The notes: generated from the sequence alone by a model not told the origin. 64,000 bases of DNA from Actinobacteria bacterium HGW-Actinobacteria-1 (GCA_002841355.1 PHFB01000006.1:1-64000), one strand, 5' to 3'. Shown: positions 25,329 through 62,390, counted from the first letter of the stretch. Numbers and translations are program-made.

Positions 25329-25363
25329 CGTGCGGCCGGATCGGTCGCCGGAGAGGAGTCATC

Positions 25364-25702: not shown

Positions 25703-25750
25703 TTCGACAGGACCGCGACGGCGCGCTCGCACCTCGGCTAGAATGGCGCT

Positions 25751-27145: not shown

Positions 27146-27148
27146 CGC

Positions 27149-33422: not shown

Positions 33423-33519
33423 GGAGGCGAATGGGTCCTGGTGGGCTCCGCGGTCTTCAAAACCGTCGTGGGGCGTGAAGAGCGTCCTGGGTGTGTTCGA
33501 TTCGCACACGCCTCCGCCA
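33423..33519 (+). tRNA. selC: tRNA-Sec (anticodon TCA)
   Basis: Acceptor GGAGGCG pairs with CGCCTCC. The D stem has 6 bp (GGGTCC/GGGCTC) closing a 4-nt loop TGGT. The anticodon loop CTTCAAA carries TCA. A long variable arm and T arm GTGTG-TTCGATT-CGCAC follow, then discriminator G and encoded CCA (33517-33519). The long D stem, tight D loop and extended variable arm are diagnostic. It lies 4.4 kb after selB, between divergent cytochrome genes. Confidence 0.95.
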
Positions 33520-46883: not shown

Positions 46884-47771
46884 GTGAACCTTTCCCAGCT
46901 TCGAACGTTCGTGGCGGTCGTCGAACACGCATCGTTTTCGGCGGCGGCCCGCGCACTCGGGCTCTCTCAGCCTGCAGTCACCATGCAGGTCCAGGCGCTC
47001 GAGTCCGACCTCGGCGTCACGCTGCTCGATCGCCGGTATCGTAAGGTCGAGTTGACCGAGGCCGGGCGCGCCCTGCTGCCACATGCTCGCAAGCTGATGC
47101 TTGAGGTCGACGAGGCGCGACTTGATCTCGAGAACCTCTCGGGTACGGTGTCGGGTCGCCTCACGGTAGCGGCCAGCACCACACCGGGGCAGTACGTGCT
47201 GCCGCGACTGCTTGGTGGCTTCCTCAACCGGTATCCGGACGTTGGCGTCACGCTGCGCGTCTTCGACACAAGTGACGTCATCGCGCACGTCGAGAGCGGG
47301 GAGGCGCACCTTGGTATGACCGGCGCCGAGGTCTCCGGCGCGCGCGTAGCCTCCGAGAAGCTCGGCAGCGATGACCTCGTGCTCGTTTGCCCGCCGGGAC
47401 ACGAACTGGCGTCGCGGAAGAAGATTCTGCTGCCAGGCCTCATCGACGAACCGTTCATCGTGCGCGAGGGTGGTTCGGGAACCCGGATGGTCGCCGAGGA
47501 CGTCATGCGGCGCGCGGGCGTGGATCCGACCGAGCTTCGCGTGGTTATGGAGCTTGGCACGAACGAGGCGGTGCTCTCGGCCGTCGAGGGTGGTATGGGT
47601 ATAGGCATCGTGAGCATGTGGGTCGCCGAGAAGGCGATCAAGCTCGGTACGGTCGGTCTGGTCCCGGTGCCCGAGTTCCCGCTTGCTCGACCGCTTTTCC
47701 TGGTCACGCCGCGCACCACGCTCACGCGTGCGGCCGAAGCACTCGCGAACTACCTGAGGGTGGCGCTGTAG
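46884..47771 (+). CDS. LysR-family transcriptional regulator
   Basis: 295 residues from GTG 46884 (GGGGGGC upstream). The N-terminal helix-turn-helix is complete: FVAVVEHASFSAAARALGL, SQPAVTMQVQALE and LLDRRYRKVELTEAG. The ligand domain resembles CysL/CbbR-type regulators (PGQYVLPRLLGGFLNRYPDV). It stops 63 bases before the first CWB2 surface-protein gene on the same strand, which it may control. It lies at the start of the molybdenum/tungsten region; its ligand is unknown. Confidence 0.92.
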   Translation: MNLSQLRTFVAVVEHASFSAAARALGLSQPAVTMQVQALESDLGVTLLDRRYRKVELTEAGRALLPHARKLMLEVDEARLDLENLSGTVSGRLTVAASTTPGQYVLPRLLGGFLNRYPDVGVTLRVFDTSDVIAHVESGEAHLGMTGAEVSGARVASEKLGSDDLVLVCPPGHELASRKKILLPGLIDEPFIVREGGSGTRMVAEDVMRRAGVDPTELRVVMELGTNEAVLSAVEGGMGIGIVSMWVAEKAIKLGTVGLVPVPEFPLARPLFLVTPRTTLTRAAEALANYLRVAL

Positions 47772-47834
47772 GTGAGAGTCCCCGGCGCTGTGCGTCCGGG
47801 AGTGTCATTCGTCTCGATGAGAACGGAGCGTGCT

Positions 47835-49886
47835 ATGGGGGCACATCGTTGGGCTCGCTATCTAACAGTCTTGTTGGTCACGGCTCTGGTGACACCGCTG
47901 GTGGGCGTTCCAACAGCGTTCGCCGCTTCAAGCTTCACCGGGGGACCGACCGACACGGTTCTGTACGTTCCAAACGACCACACGCCCATCGCATTCCGGT
48001 TCCGGGCAACTGCCGGGCTCTCCCCAAGCACTCAGTACTACGTGAAGGTGCGCTTCACCGTCGGCACCTCACCGAACCCTACGACGAACCGCGGATTCAC
48101 CTGGAATGCCGCGTCGGGAGCATGGGTTCCGGACCTTGGCGGAGGCAACTGGACCGACTTCCCGGTCGTCACCAGCAACTCTGACGGCACGATCACCGAG
48201 CAATGGATCTTCGCGAAATTCGGCGACGAGCTCTCCTCGGGGGCATACCACGTGATGATCTCGCTCTTCGCCAACGGGACCACGTACAACTCGTCGGACG
48301 TCCCCGCCGTCACGGTCATGAACATGGCCACAGAGGGCGGCTGGATCCACAACGGGACCACGATCGCGGCCGGATCCGCCGGCAAGCGCGTCGAGTGCAC
48401 TTCCATCGCATCTACGGCGACCGTCTATGCGCTGGCGAAGACCGAGCTCGACCTGGTCGATAGCGACTCTGACGGCACGGTCGACAACGAAGACTACGGC
48501 CCCGCAGGCGTTTCTGCCGCCGACTTCCGTCTTGGCGTGCCGGTAGGCGTGCCGTTCAACACGTACATCAATCGGACGACGCAGATCACGACGTCCTTCA
48601 CGCTGCCGGTGGCCGACACCGACATCGTACATACTGGCGCCGATCAGGTCGCCCCGAGCGCGCCCGGCTCCTTCCTGGTGAAGTCGGACGTCCTGTCGAA
48701 TGAACTGTCCTGGACGGCGGCTTCCGATTCAGGCGGGTCGGGCCTCGCGAGCTACCGTATCGTTCGCCGCGTGGCGACCGAAACCGCCGGCTTCTCGAAC
48801 CCGTGGTCGCTCATCGCAACGCCGACGGCGGGTACCACCTCGTACGTAGACGATGACCTCGAAGCCGGGGTCGAGTACTTCTACGAGATCAGAGCCGTGG
48901 ACACGGCAACGAACATCGGTCCGCGTGCATCGGGAAGCGGCACACCGCTTTCCGAGCCACCCGTAACGGTTCGCACCTCGGGCGCCGATCGCTACGCGAC
49001 CGCGATCGCGATCTCGGAGAGCACGTTCGCGCCAGACTCGGTCTCCACAGCCATCCTCGCCACGGGCATGAACTTCCCGGATGCGCTTGCGGCATCGGGT
49101 CTCGCCGGTGCGGTTGGCTCGCCGGTGCTGCTCGTCGGCGCGTCCGTGACCGCTTCGCTCACCGCCGAACTCGATCGGCTCGGCGTGACCGACGTCGTCA
49201 TCGTCGGCGGCGAGAGTGCCGTTTCGGCAAGCGTCGCGACCCAGCTCGCCGAGAACTACACCGTGGACCGGATCGCGGGTAGCGACAGGTACATCACCGC
49301 GGCGTACGTTGCATCGCGCATCAACGAACTGACGGGCAACACCAGCTTCGCGTTCTTCGCACGCGGCGACAGCTTCGCAGACGCGCTTGCGGTTTCGCCG
49401 ATCGCCTACAGTGGCGCGATACCGGTTCTGCTCGTCCGTCCCAGCAGCGTGCCGACGATCACGAGTGGCGCCATCGGTGTCCTCGGCGTCACGGACGGCG
49501 TCGTCGCGGGCAGTGAGGCAGCCGTTTCGAGTGGCGTGTACACCACGCTCGACGGGCTCCTAAGCGGGACGATCCAGCGCGTTGGCGGTACGAATCGCTA
49601 CGACACCGCCAAGCTCGTCGCCGAGTACGCGGTTGACGAGGGCTGGGCCACCTACAGCTACATCGGCCTCGCGACGGGTCTCAACTACCCCGACGCGCTC
49701 GGCGGCTGTGCTGCCACCGCGTGGAATGGCGGCGTACTGCTGCTGACCGACCCCAACACGCTCTCAGCACCGGTCGCCTCGGCGATCACCGACAACAAGA
49801 GCGATATCGGGATGGTCGAGATCTACGGCGGGACGAGCGCGGTCAGCCAGGGCGTCTTCGACGCCGTGGAGGCGCTGCTGAACTAA
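47835..49886 (+). CDS. CWB2 surface protein, paralogue 1
   Basis: 683 residues. Signal peptide (YLTVLLVTALVTPLVGVPTAFA); an unnamed N-terminal domain of about 220 residues (TGGPTDTVLYVPNDHTPIAF start) ending in a calcium-type loop DSDSDGTVDNEDYG; a fibronectin-like domain (residues 270-375, PSAPGSF to IRAVDTATN); then three CWB2 repeats (SGADRYATAIAIS, AGSDRYITAAYVA, GGTNRYDTAKLVA). It is wall-anchored and outside the cell. ATG 47835 has GGAG 6 bases upstream. It is closely similar over its whole length to the protein at 51026, which also has 683 residues. Role unknown; perhaps a ligand-binding or structural surface protein. Confidence 0.88.
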   Translation: MGAHRWARYLTVLLVTALVTPLVGVPTAFAASSFTGGPTDTVLYVPNDHTPIAFRFRATAGLSPSTQYYVKVRFTVGTSPNPTTNRGFTWNAASGAWVPDLGGGNWTDFPVVTSNSDGTITEQWIFAKFGDELSSGAYHVMISLFANGTTYNSSDVPAVTVMNMATEGGWIHNGTTIAAGSAGKRVECTSIASTATVYALAKTELDLVDSDSDGTVDNEDYGPAGVSAADFRLGVPVGVPFNTYINRTTQITTSFTLPVADTDIVHTGADQVAPSAPGSFLVKSDVLSNELSWTAASDSGGSGLASYRIVRRVATETAGFSNPWSLIATPTAGTTSYVDDDLEAGVEYFYEIRAVDTATNIGPRASGSGTPLSEPPVTVRTSGADRYATAIAISESTFAPDSVSTAILATGMNFPDALAASGLAGAVGSPVLLVGASVTASLTAELDRLGVTDVVIVGGESAVSASVATQLAENYTVDRIAGSDRYITAAYVASRINELTGNTSFAFFARGDSFADALAVSPIAYSGAIPVLLVRPSSVPTITSGAIGVLGVTDGVVAGSEAAVSSGVYTTLDGLLSGTIQRVGGTNRYDTAKLVAEYAVDEGWATYSYIGLATGLNYPDALGGCAATAWNGGVLLLTDPNTLSAPVASAITDNKSDIGMVEIYGGTSAVSQGVFDAVEALLN

Positions 49887-49906: not shown

Positions 49907-49946
49907 CGAGCCGCCCGCGATGCTTCTTGCTATCGAGGGCGGCTCG
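49907..49946 (+). terminator. Hairpin after CWB2 paralogue 1
   Basis: CGAGCCGCCC pairs with GGGCGGCTCG over 10 bp, with a 4-bp inner stem (CGAT/ATCG), followed by CGTTTAC. It separates the first CWB2 gene from the regulator and the eight-gene run. Confidence 0.65.
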
Positions 49947-49957
49947 CGTTTACACTC

Positions 49958-49998
49958 AGGTACACACCCTAAAGAGAAACTTAGAGTAGGTGATACCT
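49958..49998. promoter_or_regulatory. Nested inverted repeats before the HTH-PBP regulator
   Basis: AGGTACACACC (49958) and GGTGATACCT (49989) are imperfect inverted halves that enclose CTAA (49969) and TTAG (49981). The whole dyad ends next to the GTG at 49999 and covers its ribosome site, so a bound regulator or RNA fold would silence the gene. Confidence 0.45.
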
Positions 49999-50988
49999 GT
50001 GGCCGGCACCATCAGGATGAGCCGCGATGATCAACTGGAAGCGGTTGGTGATTCGACGCGACGTGCGCTCTTGCGCAGGCTTATGGCCGCTCCGGCGACG
50101 CTCTCACAGCTTGGTACGGCGTTTGGCAAGCACCCCGCGTGGATTCGTCATCACGTCATGCGATTGGTCGATGCCGGCCTCGTCGAGTTGAGTGAGATCC
50201 GCCAGGTCCGCAACTACACCGAGAAGTACTACCGGGCTACTGCCTCGGCATTCGAAGTGCACCTCTTGCTTGCACCGGATGATGGCGCGGATCGCACGGT
50301 CACCGTTGTGGGCAGCAACGACAGCGCGCTTGAGGCGTTCGCCGGGAGTCTCTCGGGCATGTCGGTGGTGCCGGTGTCGATTGGGAGCCTCGACGGGCTC
50401 ATCGCCCTTCGCCAGGGACTGGCCGACATCGCGGCGTGCCACCTCTTCGACACGCGTGAATCCGAGTACAACATCCCGTACGTGCGCCATCTGTTCGCGG
50501 ACCGCGAGGTCGTCGTCCTTACGCTGGTTCATCGCGAACAGGGTGTGATGGTCCGCTCGGGCAATCCACTTGGGATACGGAAAGTCGCCGACATCGTCGA
50601 GGCTGGCGCACGCCTGGCAAACCGCAATCCCGGTTCGGGCACGCGAATCTGGCTCGACGGGGAACTCCGCTCGATCCGTGCAGACCACTCGGCCATTCCC
50701 GGTTACGAGTCATCGTTCGTCACACATGCTGCGGTCGCGCACGAGGTGGCGCGAGGCAGGGCCGATGTTGCTCTCGGTATCAAGACGGCGGCGGAAGCCG
50801 AGGGGCTGGAATTCATCCCACTTACCCGTGAGCGGTTCGACCTTGTCATCCCCGCGGACCGAATCACGCAGGCGAACGTAGAAGAGTTCGTGGATGAACT
50901 CGAGACCAGACGTGCTCGGCAGATGATGGGCGCATTGAGCGGTTATGACGTATCCCACACCGGCGATGAGGTGTCACTAGCAGGTTAA
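49999..50988 (+). CDS. ArsR-type HTH fused to a PBP-like (oxyanion-type) sensor domain
   Basis: 329 residues. Residues 10-85 form a winged helix-turn-helix (STRRALLRRLMAAPATLSQL, IRHHVMRLVDAGLVEL, YTEKYYRATAS). Residues 90-315 form a PBP-like domain of the PF12727 kind, seen with molybdate/MoeA-linked regulators: VVGSNDSALEAFAGSL, LADIAACHLFD, RNPGSGTRIWLD, RADVALGIKTAAEAEGLEFI. The likely ligand is an oxyanion such as molybdate or tungstate, by family and context. GTG 49999 has AGAGTAGG 8 bases upstream. It lies 37 bases before the eight-gene run and is its probable controller. Confidence 0.8.
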   Translation: MAGTIRMSRDDQLEAVGDSTRRALLRRLMAAPATLSQLGTAFGKHPAWIRHHVMRLVDAGLVELSEIRQVRNYTEKYYRATASAFEVHLLLAPDDGADRTVTVVGSNDSALEAFAGSLSGMSVVPVSIGSLDGLIALRQGLADIAACHLFDTRESEYNIPYVRHLFADREVVVLTLVHREQGVMVRSGNPLGIRKVADIVEAGARLANRNPGSGTRIWLDGELRSIRADHSAIPGYESSFVTHAAVAHEVARGRADVALGIKTAAEAEGLEFIPLTRERFDLVIPADRITQANVEEFVDELETRRARQMMGALSGYDVSHTGDEVSLAG

Positions 50989-51025
50989 GCGCAGGCGTAT
51001 TGGAGCGTTACCCAGGGAGGTCGGC

Positions 51026-53077
51026 ATGAAGAAGGGACTCATACGAAAGCGGGTTGCCATTCTGGTGGCGCTCGCGATGATCGCGTCGATGGGGTGGGCG
51101 ACCCCATCCGCGTCGGGCGCTGCAGGCACGTTCACTGGTGGCGCCTATGACATGCCGCTCTACGTGGCGAACGATCACACGCCGGTCGCGCTCCGTTTCA
51201 ACGCAACGGGCGGGCTCGAGGCGAGCACGCAGTACTACGTGAAGGTGCGCTTCACTGCAGACGTGGTGCCGAACTCGACCACGAACCGTGGATGGACGTA
51301 CAACCCGACGTCGAACACGTGGGTTCAGGAGCGCGAAGACTGGACGCTCTTCCCGATCGTGACCACCGACGCGAGCGGTCTGCTCGACACGTGGATCTAC
51401 ACCAAGTTCGGCGACGAAGATCAGAGCGGTTCGTACCACGCCATGATCTCGCTCTCGAAGACGGGTGCGGCGTCGACGTACAACTCGTCCGTAGTGCCTG
51501 TCGTGACAGTCATGGACATGAAGACGGCAGGCGCGTGGATCCACAATGGCACGGCCACCGGTGCGTCCACTGCCAAGCGTGCCGAGGTTACGTCGGTTGC
51601 CTCGACTACCACTGTGTATGCGCTTGGCAAGACCGAGACCGACCTTGTCGACAGTGACTCGAACGGCGTGGTCGACGACGAGGACTGCGGTCCCACGGGC
51701 AAGAATGGCGACTACCGATTCGCGGTGCCGACCGCCACTGCGTTCAGTGTGTATCTGAACCGCAACTACACCTCTAGCACGATCCTCAACAAGACGGTTG
51801 CGGCGAACGACATCGACATCGCTCTCATGGCCGCCGATACGGAGGCGCCGAGTGCTCCAGCTAACCTCACCGCTACACCGGGCTCGGACAGTGTGATGCT
51901 CGAGTGGGACGCGGCGACCGATTCGGGCTCGGGTGTTTCGGGCTACAAGGTCTATCGCTGGCAGGCGTCACCGTCGGCGTCGTACACCTATCCCAAGAGC
52001 CTCATCGCAACGCCTTCGGCTGGCGTGACCTCCTTCCTGGATGAAGGACTGGTCAAGGGCGAAGAGTACAGCTACGAGGTCCGTGCCGTTGACGCCGACA
52101 CGAACGTCAGCCCCCGTTCTGTCGAAGCCACAGCCGTTCCGCTGGGCTTGATGGACACCACCCGCACTTCCGGCACCGATCGCTACGCGACCGCGATCGC
52201 GCTGTCGTCGTCGACGTTTGCCGACAGCTCCGTGACGACCGCTGTCGTGGCAACGGGCCGAGACTTCCCGGATGCGCTCTCCGCATCGAGCCTGGCAGGC
52301 GTGTACGGAAGCCCGATCCTGCTCGTGGGTACGTCGGTCACCGCGTCGCTGACCGCGGAACTCGACCGTCTGGGCGTGCAGGACATCGTGCTTATCGGCG
52401 GCACAAGCGCTGTCTCGGAGACGATCGAGACGTCGCTCTCCGCGAGCTATGACGTCTCGCGCGTCTCTGGCGACGATCGCTACGCGACATCGGTTGCTGT
52501 TGCCTCTGAGGTCGCGAGCCTCACCGGCGGCATGACCGAGGCGTTCTTCGCGCGCGGCGACGGTTTCGCCGACGCGCTTGCGGTGTCTCCGTTCGCGTAT
52601 GGTCAGGCCATCCCGGTCTTGCTGGTTCGGCCGACGAGCATTCCCACAGTCGTTAACACGGCCATCGGCACGCTCGGCTTGACCGACGGCATCATCGTCG
52701 GCGGAACCCCCGCCGTGTCCGCGGCGGTCATGAGCGACCTTGACGGCCTGATGTCCGGCTCGGTCACCCGTGTCTGGGGTACGGACCGTTATCTCACCGC
52801 CCGCGCCGTCGCCGACTTCGGTGTCGCACAGGGCTGGGGCGGCTACGGCTACGTTGGCGTGGCGACCGGGCTGACCTTCCCGGACGCGCTCGGTGGCGGT
52901 CCTGTTGCAGCGCAGAATCACGGCGTGCTGTTGCTGACGAACCCGACCACGCTTTCCGCTCCGGTGTCCTCGGCCATCACCACGAACAAGGCGATGATCG
53001 ACCTGGTCGACATCTACGGCAGCGAAAGCGCCGTGAGCGCCGGTGTGCGCAGCGCAATCGAAGCATTGCTTCAGTAG
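51026..53077 (+). CDS. CWB2 surface protein, paralogue 2
   Basis: 683 residues, the same length and domain order as the protein at 47835: signal peptide (RVAILVALAMIASMGWATPSA), unnamed N-terminal domain (TGGAYDMPLYVANDHTPVAL start), calcium-type loop DSDSNGVVDDEDCG, fibronectin-like domain, and three CWB2 repeats (SGTDRYATAIALS, SGDDRYATSVAVA, WGTDRYLTARAVA). GGGAGG lies 7 bases before the ATG. The next gene starts 10 bases after its stop, so it heads the eight-gene run. It is likely the surface partner of that system; ligand unknown. Confidence 0.88.
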   Translation: MKKGLIRKRVAILVALAMIASMGWATPSASGAAGTFTGGAYDMPLYVANDHTPVALRFNATGGLEASTQYYVKVRFTADVVPNSTTNRGWTYNPTSNTWVQEREDWTLFPIVTTDASGLLDTWIYTKFGDEDQSGSYHAMISLSKTGAASTYNSSVVPVVTVMDMKTAGAWIHNGTATGASTAKRAEVTSVASTTTVYALGKTETDLVDSDSNGVVDDEDCGPTGKNGDYRFAVPTATAFSVYLNRNYTSSTILNKTVAANDIDIALMAADTEAPSAPANLTATPGSDSVMLEWDAATDSGSGVSGYKVYRWQASPSASYTYPKSLIATPSAGVTSFLDEGLVKGEEYSYEVRAVDADTNVSPRSVEATAVPLGLMDTTRTSGTDRYATAIALSSSTFADSSVTTAVVATGRDFPDALSASSLAGVYGSPILLVGTSVTASLTAELDRLGVQDIVLIGGTSAVSETIETSLSASYDVSRVSGDDRYATSVAVASEVASLTGGMTEAFFARGDGFADALAVSPFAYGQAIPVLLVRPTSIPTVVNTAIGTLGLTDGIIVGGTPAVSAAVMSDLDGLMSGSVTRVWGTDRYLTARAVADFGVAQGWGGYGYVGVATGLTFPDALGGGPVAAQNHGVLLLTNPTTLSAPVSSAITTNKAMIDLVDIYGSESAVSAGVRSAIEALLQ

Positions 53078-53087
53078 GGACCGAGAC

Positions 53088-53537
53088 GTGAGTGGAGGCC
53101 GCAACCGTGCGTTGATCGTGCTAGGAGCAGTGCTCGTGCTCCTGGTCGTCGGCGCATGGGTTGCGGCCTCCCTGCTCACACCCAAGGATCAGTATGAGGT
53201 TCGGGTCATCGACGGGACGCGAGTGCTGGCTTCGTACACCGTCGAAGAGCTTCAGGCTCTGGGCGAAGCGAAGATCGTCGCCCTCGGCAAGACGGAGCAG
53301 GGGCCGAGCCTCATACGGGTACTTGAGGATGCGGGCGTCAGGGAGTTCACGCGGCTTATCATCCGCGGCGCGGGCGTTCGCGACGCCGGATCGATCGTGC
53401 TCACGCATGATCAGGTGACCGACGAGGTCATCTTCGACGTCGCGAATCGCGGCACGGTGAAGATCGTCAGCCCGGACATGGCATGGGGCGACCGGGTTCG
53501 CGACGTGACCGAGATCGTCGTGGAGGGGGCCGAATGA
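53088..53537 (+). CDS. Anchored protein with a molybdopterin-oxidoreductase-like fold (tentative)
   Basis: 149 residues from GTG 53088. One membrane segment (ALIVLGAVLVLLVVGAWVAA), then an outside domain. YEVRVIDGTRVLASYTVEEL, SLIRVLEDAGVREFTRLIIRG and RVRDVTEIVVEG resemble the SUOX-like molybdopterin-binding fold, where TLEEL and a domain-closing beta strand recur. There is no cysteine, so it could not hold the metal as the oxidases do. It may bind the pterin or a related ligand, or be a structural relative. Its stop overlaps the next start. Family call is weak. Confidence 0.5.
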   Translation: MSGGRNRALIVLGAVLVLLVVGAWVAASLLTPKDQYEVRVIDGTRVLASYTVEELQALGEAKIVALGKTEQGPSLIRVLEDAGVREFTRLIIRGAGVRDAGSIVLTHDQVTDEVIFDVANRGTVKIVSPDMAWGDRVRDVTEIVVEGAE

Positions 53538-54121
53538 TGGCTCACCGTCACCGAAAGCCGCATTTCACCGTTCGAGAGATCGTCCTGCTCGCGCTTCTCG
53601 CCGCGCTCATCGTCGTCACCAAGATGGTGCTGCGGATGCCGATCAGAGTCCCGGGACATTCGGGCGTGCTGTGGATGGCGGCGCTCGTGATCGGCCGGGG
53701 TCTCGTAAAGCGGCCGTGGGCCGGCACGATGCTCGGTTTCGTCTCGGGCGTGCTCGCAGTGCTCTTCGTGGGCGGCGCCGAGGGCCCGCTGCTGTGGGTC
53801 AAGTACCTCGCTCCCGGCATGGTGCTCGACCTCATCGATGTCCTCATCCCAATCGGGCTTGAGGATCGATTCCTCGGCACGCTGGCGGGAGCGATTGCGA
53901 ACTGCGCCAAGCTTCTGAGCTCGACGATCATCGCGCTTCTGATGGGGCTCGATGCCGGATTCCTCGTGGTCGGCCTCGGCGCCTCCGCGATCTCGCACGC
54001 GTTCTTCGGGGGGCTCGGCGGATGGCTCGGCTCGTACCTGCTGCGGAGGCTGGGGCCGATCCTCAGGGGGCCATCGACCGCAGAAGTGCCGATCGACACC
54101 GAGATGCGGATGGGTGCATGA
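53534..54121 (+). CDS. ECF-transporter-like S component
   Basis: 195 residues with about six membrane segments. The N-terminus REIVLLALLAALIVVTKMVL and the loop KYLAPGMVLDLIDVLIP fit ECF substrate-capture proteins (BioY/ThiT-like shape). No adjacent T or A component, so it would share CbiQ/CbiO-type modules elsewhere or work differently here. ATG 53534 overlaps the upstream stop; ATG 53537 is also possible. The substrate is probably linked to the neighbouring molybdenum/tungsten or cofactor genes. Confidence 0.7.
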   Translation: MMAHRHRKPHFTVREIVLLALLAALIVVTKMVLRMPIRVPGHSGVLWMAALVIGRGLVKRPWAGTMLGFVSGVLAVLFVGGAEGPLLWVKYLAPGMVLDLIDVLIPIGLEDRFLGTLAGAIANCAKLLSSTIIALLMGLDAGFLVVGLGASAISHAFFGGLGGWLGSYLLRRLGPILRGPSTAEVPIDTEMRMGA

Positions 54122-55905
54122 TGCGGACGCTCCGACGCTTCATGGTAGTCAGCGTCTTGCTGGCGGCGCTGCTCCAACCGACGTCTGCGCAGGCGAAGTC
54201 GACGTATCGGGAGGGCACCGCAAGCCGGCCGTTCAGCGTGAACTCGCTTACCGGCGGGCGTATCCTCGACTCGGCGGGCGACCCTCGGATCGTGGCCAAG
54301 ACCGCGATACTGTGGGAGTTCAAGGTTGCGAGCCTCGATCCGCGGTGCATCCAGCTTCTGGGCAACGGCAACGTGCTCGTCGCGAGCAGGGACGGGAACC
54401 GGGTCCTGGAAGTTGATGTCGCGGGTCGTATCGTTTGGACCTACACATCCGCCGAGTATCAGGCGGCACTCGGACTGGATTCGACACAGCCGTTCCTGCC
54501 GTTCGCGGTGAACCGCTTCTCGGCACCCGATGGTTCTCAGCACACCCTCATCACGCTCCGCAAAGGCGAGCCGGTCTTTGAGCTTGACGAGCATAAGGAC
54601 ATCGTGTGGCGCTACGGAACGGGCGTTTCCGGATCTGGTCCGGGGCAGCTTGTTGATGCGTTCTCGGCCACACGGCTCTCGAACGGGAACACGCTCATCG
54701 CCGACAACCAGGGCTGCCGAGTCATCGAGGTGACGCCTGGCGGCGATATCGCGTGGCAGTACGGCATCGCAGGCGAGCTGGCTTCCGCACACGGCTACGC
54801 GCCCGGCTATCTCGATTGGCCTCGAACGGCGCAGCGCATCGACCCCCATCCGAGCGATGGCGCATTCACCACGCTCATCGCGGACGAGCCCGGTCAGCGC
54901 GTCGTCGAGGTCGATCAGTCGGGCGCGGTCGTGTGGCAGTACGGCCAGAACGGGGTCAGGGGTACCGCGCCCGGGCAACTCTTCGATCCGTCGCAGGCGG
55001 TCGCGCTTCCCGACGGTACGATCATGATCCTCGACAACCCGAACAGGGTCGGTCGCGTGTTGCACGTGGCCAGGGACCATAGTGTCATCAGTGTGTATCC
55101 CGACTCTGCCGACACCCCCGAGAATGGTGTGATGGGGGAGACGCGATCGGTGGCCGTCTCGGCTTCAAACGCGGCACAGTTCCCCGGTTGCATTCTCATG
55201 GCAGATGAGTCGAACGACCGCATCATTCGTGTCGGGTACGAGCCTTCGGTCAAGCTGACCTCTCTTGACCTTGACTGCGGACTACCCGGCGTTCAGAAGG
55301 ACTTCCTCGCGATCTCGTGGGAAGGCACCCTTCCGAGAGGAACCTCGCTGATGCTGTACTACGCCATCGACGATGGCGCATGGCAGACTGCTGGCTCCGC
55401 GAAGCGAATCGAACTGCCGGCCACGGCCGTTGGCAAGCGCATCAAGTATCGGGTGGTCATCACGACGACCGATAGCTCGCAGCAGGCATCTCTCGATGCG
55501 GTCAGCATCGAGTCCGCGCCTGCCGCCGACCACGAGCGCACCCCGGACAGCACCGGTGGTATGTCTTCAACGGAAGGCACGCGAACCTCAGCAACCAGCG
55601 GGAACACCGCGACCGCTCCGATACCCTCCGGAGCCAAAGGCAGCGCTGGCGGCGCTCTCATAAGCGACGCCGGGGTCGAAGGTGTTTTCGATGGTCCACT
55701 CGAGACGGCGGCGGGCCAGGTGCTTGCCGCGAGCGCCACGTCGATACCGGGGCTGCCGGGCCCGGGTGGAACGCCGGGCGACCTTGGCGGATCCGCCGCC
55801 GCTCTCGGGATGACGTATCTGGCCGGGTTCGCGTGGTATCCCGCGCGTTCCGGGCTTGCGCGACTCATGGCAGCAAAGAACACACACCCGCAGGGGAGGA
55901 CGTGA
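54118..55905 (+). CDS. Exported beta-propeller (NHL/PQQ-like) protein
   Basis: 595 residues. Signal peptide (RFMVVSVLLAALLQPTSAQA), then repeats of a propeller blade with a recurring pattern, such as LGNGNVLVASRDGNRVLEVD, LSNGNTLIADNQGCRVIEV, TLIADEPGQRVVEVDQSG and LPDGTIMILDNPNRVGRV. Blades often end WTY, WRYG or WQYG. From residue 385 a beta domain and a Thr/Ser/Gly-rich linker lead to a C-terminal hydrophobic segment near PGDLGGSAAALGMTYLAGFA. Similar propellers occur in arylsulfotransferase-like and NHL proteins. It could bind or scaffold an extracellular ligand. The start overlaps the previous stop (ATGATG). Confidence 0.75.
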   Translation: MMRTLRRFMVVSVLLAALLQPTSAQAKSTYREGTASRPFSVNSLTGGRILDSAGDPRIVAKTAILWEFKVASLDPRCIQLLGNGNVLVASRDGNRVLEVDVAGRIVWTYTSAEYQAALGLDSTQPFLPFAVNRFSAPDGSQHTLITLRKGEPVFELDEHKDIVWRYGTGVSGSGPGQLVDAFSATRLSNGNTLIADNQGCRVIEVTPGGDIAWQYGIAGELASAHGYAPGYLDWPRTAQRIDPHPSDGAFTTLIADEPGQRVVEVDQSGAVVWQYGQNGVRGTAPGQLFDPSQAVALPDGTIMILDNPNRVGRVLHVARDHSVISVYPDSADTPENGVMGETRSVAVSASNAAQFPGCILMADESNDRIIRVGYEPSVKLTSLDLDCGLPGVQKDFLAISWEGTLPRGTSLMLYYAIDDGAWQTAGSAKRIELPATAVGKRIKYRVVITTTDSSQQASLDAVSIESAPAADHERTPDSTGGMSSTEGTRTSATSGNTATAPIPSGAKGSAGGALISDAGVEGVFDGPLETAAGQVLAASATSIPGLPGPGGTPGDLGGSAAALGMTYLAGFAWYPARSGLARLMAAKNTHPQGRT

Positions 55906-55912
55906 CACGGCA

Positions 55913-56557
55913 ATGCTCGACGGTATCCGCTATCTACTGACGACCCCGCAGGCGATCATCTACGAAATCGCTACCGCGCTGCTCTACCCTGTACTGTTCA
56001 TCGAGGTGATTGCGCTCGCCTGGGCCGTTTTCGAGCTCGGCTCGTTCACGTGGGAGGCTCTCCGGCGACGAGGGAGACGCTCGCTTCGCGCCATGGACGA
56101 AGTCACAACGCGCGCTGCGCTGCTACTTGCCGATGGCAAGTCCGAGGGCGCGCTCACCGAGATGCGCCGGCTGCCCGGCCGAGGCTGGGTTCGTACGTTC
56201 TTCGCCGAGGCCGAGGGCGCCGACTGGCATGAACGAACGCGACTTCTCAAGCGCCTCACGGATCTGGAGTCTCGTGTCAGCAAGACGCTGGAGCGCACTC
56301 GCATCCTGGTGCGACTGGGGCCGATGCTTGGACTCATGGGCACGCTGATTCCCATCAGCCCCGCGCTCATCGGACTCGCGAAGGGCGACGTCCAGACGCT
56401 GTCGGATAACCTGGTCGTCGCGTTCTCTACCACGGTCATCGGTCTTCTCATCGGCGGTCTGGGGTACGTCGTCTCCACCGTGCGAGACCGCTGGTACGGA
56501 CTGGATGTGAGCGACATCGAATACGCGCTCGACCGGGTCGAGGAGCACCTGCAGTGA
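55913..56557 (+). CDS. MotA/TolQ/ExbB-type proton channel protein
   Basis: 214 residues. Membrane segments near residues 15-40, 140-165 and 170-190. The family core is in LVRLGPMLGLMGTLIPISPAL and LSDNLVVAFSTTVIGLLIGGLGYVVS, the two helices that line the proton path in ExbB/TolQ/MotA. It should pair with the DUF2149 protein, whose GTG overlaps its stop, as an ExbD-like partner. In a monoderm cell no TonB or outer membrane is expected, so the driven machine is unknown. Confidence 0.85.
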   Translation: MLDGIRYLLTTPQAIIYEIATALLYPVLFIEVIALAWAVFELGSFTWEALRRRGRRSLRAMDEVTTRAALLLADGKSEGALTEMRRLPGRGWVRTFFAEAEGADWHERTRLLKRLTDLESRVSKTLERTRILVRLGPMLGLMGTLIPISPALIGLAKGDVQTLSDNLVVAFSTTVIGLLIGGLGYVVSTVRDRWYGLDVSDIEYALDRVEEHLQ

Positions 56558-56916
56558 ACAGGCAGGCGCGCTGGAAGGGTGACCCTGGCTCGTTCATGGA
56601 ACGACACCGGACGCGCATACCGGATCGCAACGGCGATCCTATGGAAGCGGTCGGGAACCTGTTCGATGTGGCGATGCTGATCGGCATCGGCTTCCTGGTG
56701 GTTGCGCTCTCTTCGTTCGGACTCAAAGAGCTGCTCACGCAAGATGACCTCACCATAGTGAAGGCGCCAGGGACTCCACAAATGGAGATCATCACTCGCT
56801 CCGGCGAGAAGGTGGAGCGTTTCACCACCACGCCCGAGCAGGCATCGGGCCAAGGTTTGCCGATTGGAACCGTTTACCGGCTTGAGAACGGGCAGATCGT
56901 CTGGGTCCCCCAATAA
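56554..56916 (+). CDS. DUF2149 protein (ExbD-like partner)
   Basis: 120 residues from GTG 56554, overlapping the channel gene by 4 bases. It has one membrane segment (FDVAMLIGIGFLVVALSSFG) preceded by NLFDVA, and the family's ending GTVYRLENGQIVWVP. DUF2149 proteins are found next to ExbB-like genes in methanogens and other anaerobes. By topology (one helix near the N-terminus, an outside domain) it resembles ExbD/TolR. Function not established. Confidence 0.82.
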   Translation: MNRQARWKGDPGSFMERHRTRIPDRNGDPMEAVGNLFDVAMLIGIGFLVVALSSFGLKELLTQDDLTIVKAPGTPQMEIITRSGEKVERFTTTPEQASGQGLPIGTVYRLENGQIVWVPQ

Positions 56917-56926
56917 GGAGAGTTAG

Positions 56927-57679
56927 ATGACACGCATATTCGTGACGTTCGACGATACCGACACGCTCGATTGCGGACGCGGCACCGGCAAGCTCGCACG
57001 CTGGTTCGAGGGCGAGCTGCCTGATGGTTGCGTGATGTGGGGCGTCGTGCGCCAGCAACTGCTGGTCCACCCGGATGTGCCGTACACGTCGCACAACAGC
57101 TCGGCGTGCGTCGTGATCGACGCTCCAAGCGCGAACGTTGTCCCGCTACTCATCGACCGGGCAATCGCGCACCTTGAGAAGCACGCCGTTGACGGCAGCG
57201 ATCCCGGACTGTGTGTTGCCACCGATGAGGCTCCCCGGCTCCATATCCTGCAGGCGTTCGCCGAGCGTGCAACGCGGGAGGTACTCACGCAAGCGGACGC
57301 GATTGCTGCGGCAACAGCTGCCGGCGTGCATCTGTCCGCACACGGCGGGACGAGCGACGGCATCATTGGGGCTGCAGCAGGAACGGGCCTCACGATCGAT
57401 GGATGGTCGGGCAGGTTCATTGAGTATGGCGGTGAGAAGCGTTTGCGAGACTTCCCGGATATCGTTCGGGTGGGTGATCTAGTGGCCGAGGGCATGATCG
57501 TGCTTCCCGTCGACCGCAACGTGGAGTCAGCCAAGCCGGATGATCTGGTGGACTCGCTCGGCTGGCTTCGGCCCCGACTATGGGGCGGTCGGCCCGCGGT
57601 GCCGGTGCTCCGCACGGAGCCGGGACGCTGGCAGGCCATCGGCCGCTCAACCGGTAAGGCGAAGTCGGACGCGGAATGA
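56927..57679 (+). CDS. DDT-motif protein related to TiaS N-terminal domain
   Basis: 250 residues with AAGGAG before the ATG. The start FVTFDDTDTLDCGRGTGKLA matches the nucleotide-binding IDDTDS motif of archaeal TiaS (tRNA agmatidine synthetase), and HPDVPYTSHNSSACVVI recalls its NPNIPWKTRGN segment. The C-terminal zinc-ribbon and OB domains of TiaS are missing. A Gly-rich segment (AHGGTSDGIIGAAAGTGL) lies near residue 140. It is part of an oxyanion/cofactor operon, so a kinase-like or ligase-like role on a small molecule is more likely than tRNA work; that is inference. Confidence 0.6.
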   Translation: MTRIFVTFDDTDTLDCGRGTGKLARWFEGELPDGCVMWGVVRQQLLVHPDVPYTSHNSSACVVIDAPSANVVPLLIDRAIAHLEKHAVDGSDPGLCVATDEAPRLHILQAFAERATREVLTQADAIAAATAAGVHLSAHGGTSDGIIGAAAGTGLTIDGWSGRFIEYGGEKRLRDFPDIVRVGDLVAEGMIVLPVDRNVESAKPDDLVDSLGWLRPRLWGGRPAVPVLRTEPGRWQAIGRSTGKAKSDAE

Positions 57680-57719
57680 CCGTTCACAGAGCAGTCAACG
57701 TTCATGAGGAGGAAGCATC

Positions 57720-57926
57720 ATGCGGCTATCGGCAAGGAACGTCCTAAAAGGCAAGGTCGTTGAGATCGAGCAGGGTAGCGTCAATGCCGTCGTGAAGGTC
57801 GATATCGGCGGACCGGTCGTGAGCTCGATGGTGACACTCGATGCGCTGAAGGACCTCGGCCTGGCAGTTGGCTCGGAAGCGTATCTCGTGGTCAAGGCGT
57901 CGAACGTTATTCTCGGCGTCGACTAG
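57720..57926 (+). CDS. mop: Molybdenum-pterin binding (Mop/TOBE) protein
   Basis: 68 residues, one TOBE/Mop domain: LSARNVLKGKVVEIEQGSVN at the start and VVKASNVILGVD at the end. Such molbindins store or buffer molybdate or tungstate as higher oligomers. GAGGAGG precedes the ATG. It is the last gene of the eight-gene run and is followed by a strong hairpin. Confidence 0.9.
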   Translation: MRLSARNVLKGKVVEIEQGSVNAVVKVDIGGPVVSSMVTLDALKDLGLAVGSEAYLVVKASNVILGVD

Positions 57927-57944
57927 TCGCGTCGACACGCCTCG

Positions 57945-57982
57945 TGCACGAAGCCTGGTCCCGCGACCGGGCTTCGTGCACT
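57945..57982 (+). terminator. 17-bp hairpin after mop
   Basis: GTGCACGAAGCCTGGTC pairs with GACCGGGCTTCGTGCAC through 17 bp (one G-T pair) around a CCGC loop. No long T-run follows. It separates the eight-gene run from tupABC. Confidence 0.75.
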
Positions 57983-57994
57983 ACCGGGCGTGTT

Positions 57995-58023
57995 TGAGTG
58001 TGGTGTTCTATTGGGCTATGCTC
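57995..58023 (+). promoter_or_regulatory. Promoter for tupABC
   Basis: TTGAGT (57995-58000) and TATGCT (58018-58023) with a 17-bp spacer, directly after the hairpin. It predicts a leader of about 130 bases before tupA. Confidence 0.5.
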
Positions 58024-58029
58024 TGGGGT

Positions 58030-58162
58030 ATGCCGTGGGGGCCCCGCGGCACATATCTCCGAGCCCCGGAGTCCTACCGCGGTTGGTCGCCGCAATGGCG
58101 CCGGGGCCGACAGGGTTGAATGGGAAACGATTCAGCCTTCCGTACTCGAAAAGGAGACACAC
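58030..58162 (+). promoter_or_regulatory. Structured 5' leader of tupA, riboswitch candidate
   Basis: Three successive foldable elements: TGCCG/CGGCA plus inner pairs (58032-58052), CTCCG/CGGAG (58058-58072), and a longer stem bounded by CCT/AGG with GTTGG/CCGAC and CGCC/GGCG inside (58073-58117). The stretch is not coding. It precedes a tungstate transporter, so a molybdenum- or tungsten-cofactor riboswitch is plausible. I cannot match the Moco consensus by eye. Confidence 0.4.
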
Positions 58163-59047
58163 ATGAGAGACCGTTCTGTTCGTCCCGCCCTGTGGCGGAT
58201 GGGCGTCATCGCCCTGGCAGTCGTTTTGACGTTCTCCCTCGTGGGCTGCGCGAAGGACGACACCGAGGCCACGAATACCGCTCCGGCACCGGTCGAGAAG
58301 ACCAAGATCGTCCTCGCATCCACCACATCTACGCAGGACTCGGGTCTGTTCGACGTGCTGATTCCGGCATTCGAGAAGGCCAATCCCGAGTACACCGTAG
58401 AAGTCATCGCCGTCGGCAGCGGCGAGGCGATGAAGATGGGCGAGAACAAGGACGCCGACGTTCTGCTCGTCCATTCGCCCGCCGCCGAGAAGGCGTTCAT
58501 GGAGGCCGGTTTCGGCACCGAGCGCCGCGACGTCATGTACAACGACTTCGTCCTCGTCGGTCCGGCCTCAGATCCAGCGGGCGTCAAGAGCGCCGCGGAC
58601 CTCAACGCGGTCATGGCTGCGCTTGCTCAAGGCAAGGCGCCGTTCATGACCCGCGACGACAAGTCGGGCACGAACGCCAAGGAGCTCAAGCTGTGGACCG
58701 ACGCGAGCGTGAGTCCCACTGCCACCGCGAGTGCTGCCGACTGGTATCTCTCGACCGGTCAGGGCATGGGCGAGACGCTGAAGATCACGAACGAGAAGCA
58801 GGGCTACACGTTGGCAGATCGTGCAACCTTCCTCACGAGCAAGGGCGCGCTCGACCTCGTGATCCTGCGCGAGGGCGACAAGGCATTGCTTAACCAGTAC
58901 GGTGTCATCCCGGTCACGGACGCGACGCACCTTGATGGTGGCGTTGCTTTCATGGAATGGATCACAAGCGCCGAGGGCCAGAAGGTCATCGGCGAGTTCG
59001 GTATCGAGAAGTTCGGAGAGGCGCTCTTCACGCCAAACGCGCAGTAG
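58163..59047 (+). CDS. tupA: Tungstate-binding lipoprotein (TupA)
   Basis: 294 residues. Lipoprotein signal ending LVGCAKDD; then the TupA signature LASTTSTQDSGLFDVLIPAF near residue 52. Further features are VGSGEAMKMGENKDADVLLVHSP, FMTRDDKSGTNAKELKLW and GYTLADRATFL. It binds tungstate (or molybdate) and delivers it to TupB. AAAAGGAG precedes the ATG. Family specificity favours tungstate. Confidence 0.92.
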   Translation: MRDRSVRPALWRMGVIALAVVLTFSLVGCAKDDTEATNTAPAPVEKTKIVLASTTSTQDSGLFDVLIPAFEKANPEYTVEVIAVGSGEAMKMGENKDADVLLVHSPAAEKAFMEAGFGTERRDVMYNDFVLVGPASDPAGVKSAADLNAVMAALAQGKAPFMTRDDKSGTNAKELKLWTDASVSPTATASAADWYLSTGQGMGETLKITNEKQGYTLADRATFLTSKGALDLVILREGDKALLNQYGVIPVTDATHLDGGVAFMEWITSAEGQKVIGEFGIEKFGEALFTPNAQ

Positions 59048-59096
59048 ACCTTCTGCGTTGATGCGGCCGGCACCGCGAGCTCGAGGGTAGGGGTCA

Positions 59097-59801
59097 ATGG
59101 GAATCTTCATCGATGCGTTCCGAGACGGGCTGGCTATGCTTGCCTCGGGTGCCGCCGATGTTTGGACTATCGTTCTCGTTTCCATACAGGTCTCGGGCAT
59201 GGCGGTTCTGCTTGCGCTCGTACTGGGCATACCCGCGGGGTTCGTGCTTGGTACGAAGCGGTTCGTTGGTCGGAGATTCATGCTCATCATCGCGAACACC
59301 GGGATGGGACTCCCTCCGGTGGTCGTCGGCCTGGTTGTCGCGATGCTGCTTTCACGGCGGGGCCCCTTCGGCAGTCTTGAACTGCTCTACTCGCAGCCCG
59401 CGATGGTGATAGCGCAGCTTGTGATCGCGCTTCCCATCGTGGCTGCCGTATCCGCGGCGGCCGTCTCGGCCGTTCCGCGCGAACTCCGGCTGCAGGCGCG
59501 CTCGCTTGGTGCTTCGCCGCTCCAGGAAGCGTTCATGACGCTCAAAGAGGCCCGCATGGGCCTTATCGCGGCGGTTGCCGCGGGCTTCGGATCGATCATT
59601 TCCGAGGTGGGCGCCGTCACGATGGTCGGTGGCAACCTGGCGGGGAAGACCCGCGTCATGACCACGGCGATCGTGCAGTACACGCGAATGGGCGACTACG
59701 GCCCGGCACTCGCGCTCGCCGCCGTGCTCATGGGCATGGTGCTCATCGTGAACATCCTGCTGGCGCGCGTGCAATCGTCGGCCGAGAGGTACGAGGCGTG
59801 A
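59097..59801 (+). CDS. tupB: Tungstate ABC permease (TupB)
   Basis: 234 residues with five or six membrane segments and the binding-protein-dependent permease EAA-like motif (LQARSLGASPLQEAFMTLKE near residue 145). IIANTGMGLPPVVVGLVVAML is typical of TupB. Lies between tupA and tupC; it forms the channel. Confidence 0.9.
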   Translation: MGIFIDAFRDGLAMLASGAADVWTIVLVSIQVSGMAVLLALVLGIPAGFVLGTKRFVGRRFMLIIANTGMGLPPVVVGLVVAMLLSRRGPFGSLELLYSQPAMVIAQLVIALPIVAAVSAAAVSAVPRELRLQARSLGASPLQEAFMTLKEARMGLIAAVAAGFGSIISEVGAVTMVGGNLAGKTRVMTTAIVQYTRMGDYGPALALAAVLMGMVLIVNILLARVQSSAERYEA

Positions 59802-59805
59802 TGTC

Positions 59806-60891
59806 ATGACCGCAGCCGCCATCGCAATCACAGGCATCCAGAAGTCGTTCAAGGGCAAGATGGCCGTGGACGTCAGCCATCTCGAACTCAAGCCGGGGCG
59901 CACACTTGCGCTGCTCGGCCCGTCGGGTTCCGGGAAGTCAACGCTGCTCTCGATGATCGGGCTGCTCGAAAAGCCCGATGCGGGCACCGTCGAGCTCGAC
60001 GGTGCGCCCGTGACGGTGGCCGATCGGGCGGCTCGCATGACGATGGCAGCGGCGTTCCAGCGCACGTACCTCTTCAAGGGCACCGTCGGAGAGAACGTGG
60101 CGTACGGGCTCAAGTTGCGCCGCATATCGTCGGCCGAGACGGGCGGGCGTGTCGCCGCCGCCCTCGAGCGAGTCGGCCTTCCCGGCTGGCAGGAGCGCTC
60201 GGCGCTTACGCTTTCAGGTGGCGAGGCCCAGCGCGTGGCGCTTGCCAGGGCGCTCGTGCTCAAGCCGAGCATCCTGCTGCTGGACGAACCGCTCGCGTCG
60301 CTCGACCCGATCATGAAGTGGCGGCTCACCCGCGACTTCGCACAGATCCTGAACGAGGAACGGGTCACCACGCTCTACGTCACCCACGATCAGGACGAGG
60401 CGCTCGCGGTGGCGGACGATGTCGCGATCATGCGCGACGGCCGCGTCGTCGCATACGGTCCGGTCGATGAGGTTTTCGGACTGCCTGTGGACGATTGGAC
60501 CGCGGGGTTCCTCGGCATGGAGCCGGCGGTCCGTGGTCGCGTGCTGGAGTCCGAGGAAGGCGTCGCGCGCATCGATTGCGGCGGAGTCGACCTGTACGCC
60601 GTCGCGTCGCTTGCGGTCGGCTCAGAGGTGTCGCTGGGCGTGCGACCGGAAGACGTGCTGCTCTTCGAGGCCGATGCGGTCGTACCGCTCTCCTCGGCGA
60701 GGAACAAGCTTGAAGCCGTGGTGGCCGAGATCGACCCCTCGGGCGCCACGTTCCGTGTGGTGGTCGAGCGCGGCCCCGTGCGAATTGCGGCTCGCATATC
60801 GCGTGCGGCACTCGCCGACTTGCGGCTCAGCGTGGGTACGCCGGTCCAGGTGCTCTTCAAGGCGACCGCGGTGCGGGTCGCGTCGACGTAA
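59806..60891 (+). CDS. tupC: Tungstate ABC ATPase (TupC) with TOBE domain
   Basis: 361 residues. Walker A LGPSGSGKSTLLS, signature LTLSGGEAQRVALARAL, Walker B ILLLDEPLASLDP, and YVTHDQDEALAVAD. The C-terminal 120 residues form a TOBE/Mop-like oxyanion-sensing domain (LSSARNKLEAVVAEIDPSG). The C-terminal domain suggests feedback by the transported anion. It starts 4 bases after tupB. Confidence 0.9.
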   Translation: MTAAAIAITGIQKSFKGKMAVDVSHLELKPGRTLALLGPSGSGKSTLLSMIGLLEKPDAGTVELDGAPVTVADRAARMTMAAAFQRTYLFKGTVGENVAYGLKLRRISSAETGGRVAAALERVGLPGWQERSALTLSGGEAQRVALARALVLKPSILLLDEPLASLDPIMKWRLTRDFAQILNEERVTTLYVTHDQDEALAVADDVAIMRDGRVVAYGPVDEVFGLPVDDWTAGFLGMEPAVRGRVLESEEGVARIDCGGVDLYAVASLAVGSEVSLGVRPEDVLLFEADAVVPLSSARNKLEAVVAEIDPSGATFRVVVERGPVRIAARISRAALADLRLSVGTPVQVLFKATAVRVAST

Positions 60892-60959
60892 GGTACCCTG
60901 CGGGGTATGATTCAGTACTGTTCCGCACTGCGCGATCGCGCGCTCCCGGCAGGAGGCGG

Positions 60960-62390
60960 ATGAGTTTGGAGAAGGAAGGTTCGAGCAAGCGTCTTCCGGT
61001 GACCGCGGCGGTTCTCGCCGGCGGTCGCTCGATGCGTATGGGCATCGACAAGACGATGCTTCCGGTCGATGGCGAGCCGCTTGTCGCGCGCGTCGTTGAG
61101 TCGGTGGGTGCGCTGTGCGAGCACGTCGTGGTGGTCACGAACCGCCCCGAGGCGCTTGAGGGCGCTGACTTGCCCGCGGGTGTCCGTATCCTGCAGGACG
61201 CGGTAGCGTACCAGGGTCCGCTCGGCGGTCTGGCCACCGCGCTTGAAGCCGCCGAGGACGACTGGGTCCTTGCGGTCGCGGCCGACATGCCCTGGCTGCG
61301 TCCCGAGGTCGTGCGGCTGCTCTGGGAGTCGCGGGGCAACGCGCAGGTCGTCATCCCGCTGACCGAGAAGGGCTCTGAGCCGCTGCTCGCCCTCTATCAC
61401 CGCGATTGTCTTCCGGCAGCGCGCAAGGTCCTCGAGTCCGGGCGCCGGCGCGTCGTGGCGATCCTGCCGTCGCTCACCGTCGTCGAGGTGCCTTTGACCG
61501 AGTTGCGCACCGTCGACCCCGATCTCTCCAGCTTCGTCAACGTGAACACGCCCGAGGACTTGAGCGACGTGCGCGAGGGCAGCGCTTCCATGCCGCGCGG
61601 CGAGGATGCTCGCGAGGTCCGCGTCTCGGTCATCGAGGTCGGCACTCGGCGCCCGCGGGGTATGCCGAGCGAGCGTGCAGTCACCATCGACATGAACGGC
61701 ACGGAGATCGCGACGATCCAGGCTACGCCTGACGCACTCGAGGAGATGGCGGTCGGGTTCCTCGTCGGCGAGGGGCTGCTCACCGATCGCGAGGCGTTCC
61801 TCGGCGCGGATGTGGATGCCAAGCGCGGCCTCGTCTACGTGCGCAGCAACGAACCTGTGCCCGACGACCTCGTCTACCGCCGCCGGTACATCACGGCTGG
61901 TTGCGGCAAGGGCGTCACGTTCGCGTCGCTCGGCCATACGCTTGGCCTGGAGGCGATTACGTCGGAGGAGGTCGTTGACTCCGACGCGCTCTACGACATG
62001 ATGGGCCAGATGTCGCGGCAGGCGGTCTCATACCGTGACACCGGCGGCATGCACGCGTGCGCGCTTGGCCGAGATGGTCAGGTGCAGCTCGTTCGCGAGG
62101 ACGTCGGTCGCCACAACGCGGTCGACAAGGTGCTCGGTCGGGCGTGGATCGACCGCATCCCGGTCGAGGGAGCCGTGCTGCTGACCACCGGCCGCATCAG
62201 CTACGAGATGGCGGTGAAGGCCGCCAAGGCGCGCGTCCCGGTGGTCGTCTCTCGGACCGCCGTCACCGACCTTGCCGCCGAGGTGGCCGCTGCCGTCGGC
62301 GTGACGCTTGTGGGTTACGCACGCGGCGGCAAGCTCGTCGTCTACACGCGACCGGATAGAGTGTCGCTTCCCGAGGAGGACGTTCAGTGA
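60960..62390 (+). CDS. MobA-FdhD fusion protein
   Basis: 476 residues. The N-terminal MobA domain (residues 10-205) attaches a nucleotide to molybdopterin: AAVLAGGRSMRMGIDKTMLP, QGPLGGLATALEAAED, VAADMPWL and FVNVNTPEDL. The C-terminal FdhD domain (217-470) is the sulfurtransferase that activates formate dehydrogenase: MAVGFLVGEGLL, GGMHACALG, VREDVGRHNAVDKVLG and TTGRISYEMAVKA. The usual CxxC of FdhD is reduced to one Cys in ITAGCGKGVTF. The fusion joins cofactor completion with sulfur insertion. moeA overlaps its stop (GTGA). Confidence 0.9.
   Translation: MSLEKEGSSKRLPVTAAVLAGGRSMRMGIDKTMLPVDGEPLVARVVESVGALCEHVVVVTNRPEALEGADLPAGVRILQDAVAYQGPLGGLATALEAAEDDWVLAVAADMPWLRPEVVRLLWESRGNAQVVIPLTEKGSEPLLALYHRDCLPAARKVLESGRRRVVAILPSLTVVEVPLTELRTVDPDLSSFVNVNTPEDLSDVREGSASMPRGEDAREVRVSVIEVGTRRPRGMPSERAVTIDMNGTEIATIQATPDALEEMAVGFLVGEGLLTDREAFLGADVDAKRGLVYVRSNEPVPDDLVYRRRYITAGCGKGVTFASLGHTLGLEAITSEEVVDSDALYDMMGQMSRQAVSYRDTGGMHACALGRDGQVQLVREDVGRHNAVDKVLGRAWIDRIPVEGAVLLTTGRISYEMAVKAAKARVPVVVSRTAVTDLAAEVAAAVGVTLVGYARGGKLVVYTRPDRVSLPEEDVQ

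Follow-up and report, generated by a model that had tools for sequence, protein, structure and literature searches.

The window analysed here is a stretch of 64,000 nucleotides from Actinobacteria bacterium HGW-Actinobacteria-1 (GCA_002841355.1, PHFB01000006.1:1-64000). It is part of contig 8 of a 2.44 Mb genome which, to judge from related genomes, probably belongs to the order Anaerosomatales (Coriobacteriia). Its subject is a run of nine genes (49990-57926), all on the + strand, that encodes a candidate envelope system beside genes of molybdenum and tungsten (Mo/W) metabolism. Starting from the regulator at the 5′ end, successive genes are separated by 37, 10, -4, -4, 7, -4, 10 and 40 bases, so that three pairs of neighbours overlap by 4 bases and the largest gap is 40. 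A first-pass annotation had described nine genes in this order on this strand, with gaps or overlaps of at most 40 bases, and a hairpin followed by tupABC and molybdenum cofactor (Moco) genes; all of this is borne out. Its domain identities agree with those called on the nine proteins with Pfam and NCBIfam, the S-component, propeller and TiaS domains scoring weakly and below the curated cut-offs. The same searches gave no family for the small protein at 53088-53537. The features, with positions in the window, are as follows.

49990-50988, + strand: regulator with an N-terminal ArsR/HTH_20-type helix-turn-helix (1e-7) and a PBP_like domain (PF12727, 6.8e-63); alternative start at 50017 (ATG)
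51026-53077, + strand: exported surface protein with fn3 (3.6e-9) and three CWB2 wall-binding repeats (PF04122, 1.4e-47)
53088-53537, + strand: small protein with N-terminal membrane anchor and predicted sulfite-oxidase (PruR-like) fold (AlphaFold2, Foldseek, VIA-align)
53534-54121, + strand: energy-coupling factor (ECF)-type S-component, predicted YkoE/RibU/ThiT/FolT-like fold (AlphaFold2; ECF-ribofla_trS 2.1e-4, below cut-off)
54118-55905, + strand: exported β-propeller and Ig-like protein with signal peptide (Arylsulfotran_2 1.7e-5, below cut-off)
55913-56557, + strand: ExbB/TolQ/MotA-family proton-channel subunit (MotA_ExbB, PF01618, 5.9e-9)
56554-56916, + strand: DUF2149, ExbD-like partner with one transmembrane helix and a short external domain (PF09919, 1e-25)
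56927-57679, + strand: DDT, a stand-alone TiaS TCKD-like domain with a unique C-terminal part (NCBIfam TiaS 3e-6, below cut-off)
57720-57926, + strand: Mop/Tub single-TOBE oxyanion-binding protein, accessory (TIGR00638, 3.8e-23)
57943-57981, + strand: strong hairpin without a T-run, closing the transcription unit (fold of 57925-58000, -50 kcal/mol)
58045-58171, + strand: molybdenum/tungsten-cofactor riboswitch RF01055, before tupA (61.8 bits, gathering 36, E 4.1e-12)
58163-63616, + strand: tungstate/Moco unit of tupA-tupB-tupC, a MobA-FdhD fusion and MoeA (open reading frames named by inspection)

The gene run lies far beyond chance because divergent genomes show the same gene order. Samples of 298 genomes of the class and 69 of the order were compared. 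DUF2149 is present in 31 of the 298, and the order regulator, CWB2, small protein, S-component, propeller, ExbB, DUF2149 and DDT is found whole or in part at loci L031 to L046 (12 or more order-level loci, from about a dozen genomes). Where the flank is long enough to show it, the regulator is the first gene of the cassette at most loci. DDT precedes the regulator in two genomes, and a further one has an inverted, more distant DDT-like gene. Among the 69 order genomes 18 carry DUF2149, 13 the S-component and 14 a close DDT. With no correction for kinship, hypergeometric p values are 2.5e-8 for DUF2149 with the S-component (12 genomes in common), 6.9e-7 for DDT with the S-component (10) and 4.4e-6 for DUF2149 with DDT (11); three DDT-positive genomes of the order are without DUF2149. 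Mop is restricted among cassette loci to the host genus and genome G065, and was therefore rejected as a core member. Genes of tup or mod type adjoin the cassette at several order loci and not at others. The expectation that these genes would travel together in relatives thus holds: the cassette is syntenic, and its link to Mo/W genes extends across phyla.

At locus L066 the layout is regulator, C-terminal remnant of the propeller, DDT, riboswitch, tupABC, mobA/fdhD and moeA. Its DDT is 82% identical to that of the window, and its DNA aligns only with window positions 49926-50972, 55610-55814, 56927-57661 and 58031 onwards. The envelope genes can therefore be lost without separating the regulator and DDT from the tungstate unit. 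A decayed cassette is seen at L045:7519-9395, where the regulator, a CWB2 fragment and DUF2149 are left and ExbB is gone. Just upstream of the window operon (46884-49886) are a LysR-type gene and a second CWB2 protein resembling that of the operon, an arrangement kept at L034.

DDT has relatives well beyond the order. Scanning its alignment against one genome per species gave 93 confirmed relatives, of which 80 were kept, mostly from Desulfobacterota with some from Synergistota. Neighbours within 5 kb were counted at the 69 loci not belonging to the Actinomycetota set. At 49 of these (L072-L144, in Desulfobacterota and Synergistota) DDT has a molybdenum storage protein homologue nearby, a representative of which matches MosB at 1e-64. 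The molybdenum storage protein MoSto has been described as having no known homologues (PMC6448029); contrary to this, MosB-like proteins are common beside DDT. A TupB-type permease is found near DDT at 24 loci, tup and mod genes being among the neighbours, and a formate dehydrogenase operon, recognised by sequence rather than by family search, at several. A protein of 74 residues with no Pfam or NCBIfam match is near DDT at 52 of the loci; it is basic and encoded between DDT and the storage protein (for example L128:10742-10966, and about 50 further loci).

Twelve other DDT loci, in Desulfobacterota, carry a homologue of the operon S-component instead, and at none of them is the storage protein encoded within 5 kb. 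The homologue is adjoined by EcfAA and EcfT genes, EcfT being present at 11 of these loci, and a TonB-dependent receptor is present at 9-10. The nearest PDB match of this receptor is the colicin I receptor CirA, a catecholate importer, and at L082 a PBP_like regulator lies within the operon of TonB receptor, ECF, S-component and DDT genes. Desulforhopalus singaporensis DSM 12130 is one strain that has this combination of TonB receptor, ECF, S-component and DDT. In two-membrane bacteria the S-component and DDT thus recur with a different energised front end.

The DDT protein has 250 residues. Full TiaS (tRNA-Ile2 agmatinylcytidine synthetase) is a multi-domain protein of about 420. The DDT profile matches TiaS structures at 8e-8 over residues 1-167, corresponding to the TCKD kinase domain, the match ending at TiaS residue 166, whereas single DDT proteins match TiaS below curated cut-offs. 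Both the Asp motif and the equivalent of TiaS Thr18 are kept within these approximately 167 residues. DDT differs in lacking the other TiaS domains and in its location in bacterial Mo/W operons. It also weakly matches methanogenesis marker 11, for which the literature search found no matching paper. The neighbours of DDT give good support to a link with Mo/W metabolism, which we hold with high confidence; the protein may use ATP in a reaction whose substrate is a small molecule linked to Mo/W.

The S-component was modelled with AlphaFold2 (mean predicted local distance difference test score, pLDDT, 85.5). A PDB search by sequence alone gave nothing significant for it; the predicted fold did match. 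The closest solved structure is YkoE (5edl; Foldseek 3.0e-4, Z = 16.1, though with a root-mean-square deviation (rmsd) of 6.1), and other S-components align with Z of 9-14, RibU, ThiT, FolT and PanT at about 11-14. At the level of the model, the S-component fold is confirmed. An EcfA1-EcfA2-EcfT module follows rplQ in the host genome, and the operon S-component can therefore be of the shared-module type. In this and in its fold it is similar to known ECF transporters such as RibU, YkoE, ThiT and FolT, as it is in having a homologue inside a full ECF operon in Desulfobacterota. It differs from them in belonging to a family without a curated model match, with an invariant G-H motif, and in being linked to Mo/W genes and, in the host order, to an ExbB-type pair. 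The window also contains, at 44892-46748 on the - strand, genes for a CbiQ-type EcfT, a CbiM-like S-component and a Fur-like protein. The ECF genes of this group (44892-46303) were not adopted as partners of the operon S-component, given their strand, the Fur-like gene beside them and their resemblance to a metal transporter.

The small protein was modelled from seven sequences (pLDDT 86.4), and here too a sequence search of the PDB gave nothing significant and the predicted fold did match. Foldseek ranks PruR pterin-binding proteins first (7kom, 4.0e-4), ahead of sulfite oxidases and one tungsten-containing bacterial oxidoreductase. With VIA-align, Z is 12-14 for sulfite oxidase (SUOX) domains and PruR (maximum 14.0) and below 5 for unrelated rows; the alignment with PruR itself has Z = 13.0 over 108 residues with an rmsd of 2.4. 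The Mo-ligating cysteine of SUOX enzymes is absent, there being no conserved cysteine in 11 small-protein sequences and none at all in the window protein. PruR also lacks this cysteine; it binds pterins in the periplasm and is probably unable to hold full Moco (PMC13259868). Both are thus small exported SUOX-fold domains, and the operon protein is predicted from its modelled fold to be an extracellular binder of a pterin-type ligand. Sequence identity to PruR is only about 12-16%, however, and the operon protein is membrane-anchored, encoded in an uptake-type operon and without a DcpA partner.

ExbB and DUF2149 are comparable to the TonB-ExbB-ExbD and Tol motors. ExbB retains the conserved family core GLMGTLIPISPAL...AFSTTV. 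The DUF2149 alignment contains an invariant F37-D38-x-A40, and the single transmembrane helix carries the invariant Asp38, as in ExbD; the Asp is also found in divergent DUF2149 sequences. DUF2149 is nevertheless not ExbD of the PF02472 type, and canonical ExbD is found in none of the 69 order genomes. An exported, anchored protein is encoded alongside, as in Ton systems, but here it is a propeller with a C-terminal anchor, in a single-membrane lineage. In the host order this protein, from the gene before exbB, starts with a signal peptide and ends in a hydrophobic stretch, which exceeds the hydropathy threshold in 8 of 14. Another family of the class often has, beside exbB, a gene for some other exported protein, whose C-terminal end likewise tends to be hydrophobic. 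Such C-terminally anchored proteins may take the place of TonB; among the nine operon genes there is neither a TonB nor an outer-membrane receptor, the rest of the genome not having been searched for them. The same ExbB and DUF2149 pair occurs as HmuU/HmuV in the hmu heme operon of Bacteroidota, where it has been described as ExbB/ExbD-like (PMC10100974). The window operon differs from the hmu system in lacking HmuY, HmuR, HmuS and HmuT and in having Mo/W genes as neighbours. In the other family of the class (L047-L065) ExbB-DUF2149 occurs with ABC importer genes, at some loci including a Peripla_BP_2 binding protein, and with very large surface proteins; L047 has in addition DUF364/DUF4213 and an FmdE-like protein. 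At L063:10278-11288 a TiaS-like protein directly adjoins ExbB and DUF2149.

Beyond the hairpin, the riboswitch before tupA, which the first-pass annotation did not include, lacks the P3 stem in its RF01055 alignment. Riboswitch variants without P3 have been proposed to be sensors of the tungsten cofactor. In the window RF01055 occurs only here, and none was found before the envelope operon in the window or the scanned loci, so that control of the envelope operon by a Moco riboswitch was rejected. With RF01055 and a TOBE protein, the adjoining tungstate/Moco unit is like known TupABC/ModABC and Mop/Tub systems. This unit is probably transcribed separately from the envelope operon, and the known systems import the free oxyanion without ExbB or an S-component. 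The genes moaA and moaC lie just beyond the window end (contig 64917-65853). From general knowledge of regulators of this periplasmic-binding-protein type and from the neighbouring genes, the operon regulator may be a tungstate or molybdate sensor; the literature search found no matching paper on TunR. Elsewhere the window encodes a selenocysteine tRNA (33423-33515, 67.8 bits), and genes at 24378-29056 resemble selD, selA and selB by eye.

In the model that we propose, the operon is responsible for the Ton-like, proton-driven uptake of a scarce Mo/W-linked ligand by a single-membrane cell. Capture of the ligand in the wall would fall to the CWB2 protein together with the anchored protein of sulfite-oxidase fold. 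ExbB and DUF2149 would form an ExbB/ExbD-like proton motor, with the exported, C-terminally anchored propeller protein as its output partner. The ligand would then be handed to the S-component, working with the shared ECF ATPase/T module, and in the cytoplasm DDT, as an ATP-dependent enzyme of TiaS-kinase type, would process it and supply the Mo/W pool. The regulator would sense molybdate or tungstate. We regard the chances of this model as a whole as evenly balanced; that the cassette has a role in uptake is probable. The ligand might be either a pterin-type cofactor or precursor, which fits since the small protein of the host order resembles a pterin binder, or an oxyanion chelate, which fits since the Desulfobacterota TonB receptor is nearest to the catecholate receptor CirA. 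The first-pass annotation had proposed an energised machine for uptake or sensing, with Mop as a member. Its uptake side gains support from the S-component and pterin-binder folds and from the Desulfobacterota operons uniting TonB receptor, ECF, S-component and DDT genes, which speak for import; Mop is not a core member. In a more specific and rather doubtful form of the proposal, the motor of propeller, ExbB and DUF2149 feeds the S-component an external Mo/W-pterin cofactor, which the TiaS-kinase-like enzyme readies. The literature searched describes no equivalent of such an uptake route for an external Mo/W-pterin cofactor, should it exist.

Several observations weigh against the proposed uptake system. 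The propeller-ExbB-DUF2149 trio occurs without the S-component and DDT at L032 and in a second copy at L031, and ExbB-DUF2149 adjoins other importers elsewhere in the class; the motor is therefore not specific to Mo/W. In sequence, DUF2149 is weakly related to ExbD, and a cell with one membrane has no obvious membrane barrier for which a motor of this kind would be needed. No MosB-like storage protein was found in the host genome. Tungsten-type AOR enzymes are present in 58 of the 69 order genomes and so are uninformative for cassette presence. Genomes with the S-component retain moaA and moaC and are therefore unlike Moco auxotrophs; auxotrophy was rejected as a simple driver of the cassette for this reason.

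Some of the same observations bear on other explanations. The operon may combine two modules, one for Mo/W (regulator, DDT and Mop) and one for the envelope (CWB2 to DUF2149), whose function would be unrelated. The loss of the envelope genes at L066, the solitary trio and the three order genomes with DDT and no DUF2149 would all fit such a division. The S-component crosses it, however: within the order it co-occurs with DUF2149 as well as with DDT, and in Desulfobacterota it is again joined to DDT, behind another front end. We consider two modules fairly unlikely. A machine for sensing or signalling rather than import, in which the PruR-like protein binds extracellular pterin and ExbB and the propeller act on the wall or surface layer, would explain why some copies lack the S-component and DDT. 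PruR, the nearest fold, serves signalling (via DcpA in Proteobacteria), and the propeller and CWB2 proteins are surface structures. Import is nonetheless indicated by the S-component and its TonB-receptor/ECF partners in Desulfobacterota, and the domain search of the nine genes found no GGDEF/EAL or kinase partner; sensing is thus unlikely.

The pairing of ExbB with DUF2149, as in HmuU and HmuV, would equally suit a heme or corrinoid system like HmuTUV, with the tup/Moco genes adjacent by coincidence, and the BtuB, siderophore and heme receptor families all score near the Desulfobacterota TonB receptor. Against coincidence, DDT keeps company across phyla with molybdenum storage protein, tup/mod and fdh genes, and L066 retains regulator, DDT and tup after envelope gene loss. 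The regulator is of the PBP_like type, and Pfam and NCBIfam gave no HmuS/CobN chelatase or hemophore among the nine genes. We regard a heme or corrinoid system as quite improbable.

For the proposed Ton-like uptake system, two published views are of consequence. Incomplete Ton systems of single-membrane Actinobacteria have been judged likely to be non-functional (PMC12204202), and HmuV/DUF2149 has been judged diagnostic of heme transport (PMC10100974). The synteny of ExbB and DUF2149 with Mo/W genes argues against both, and for the window system the non-functional view is disfavoured because the pair is conserved together with its partners. If the proposal is true, a motor type familiar from two-membrane bacteria is at work in single-membrane cells as well. 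The operon introduces two new families, one of S-components and one of enzymes, DDT. The latter is associated across phyla with the molybdenum storage protein, and the way in which anaerobes acquire scarce tungsten, or a tungsten cofactor, becomes directly testable.

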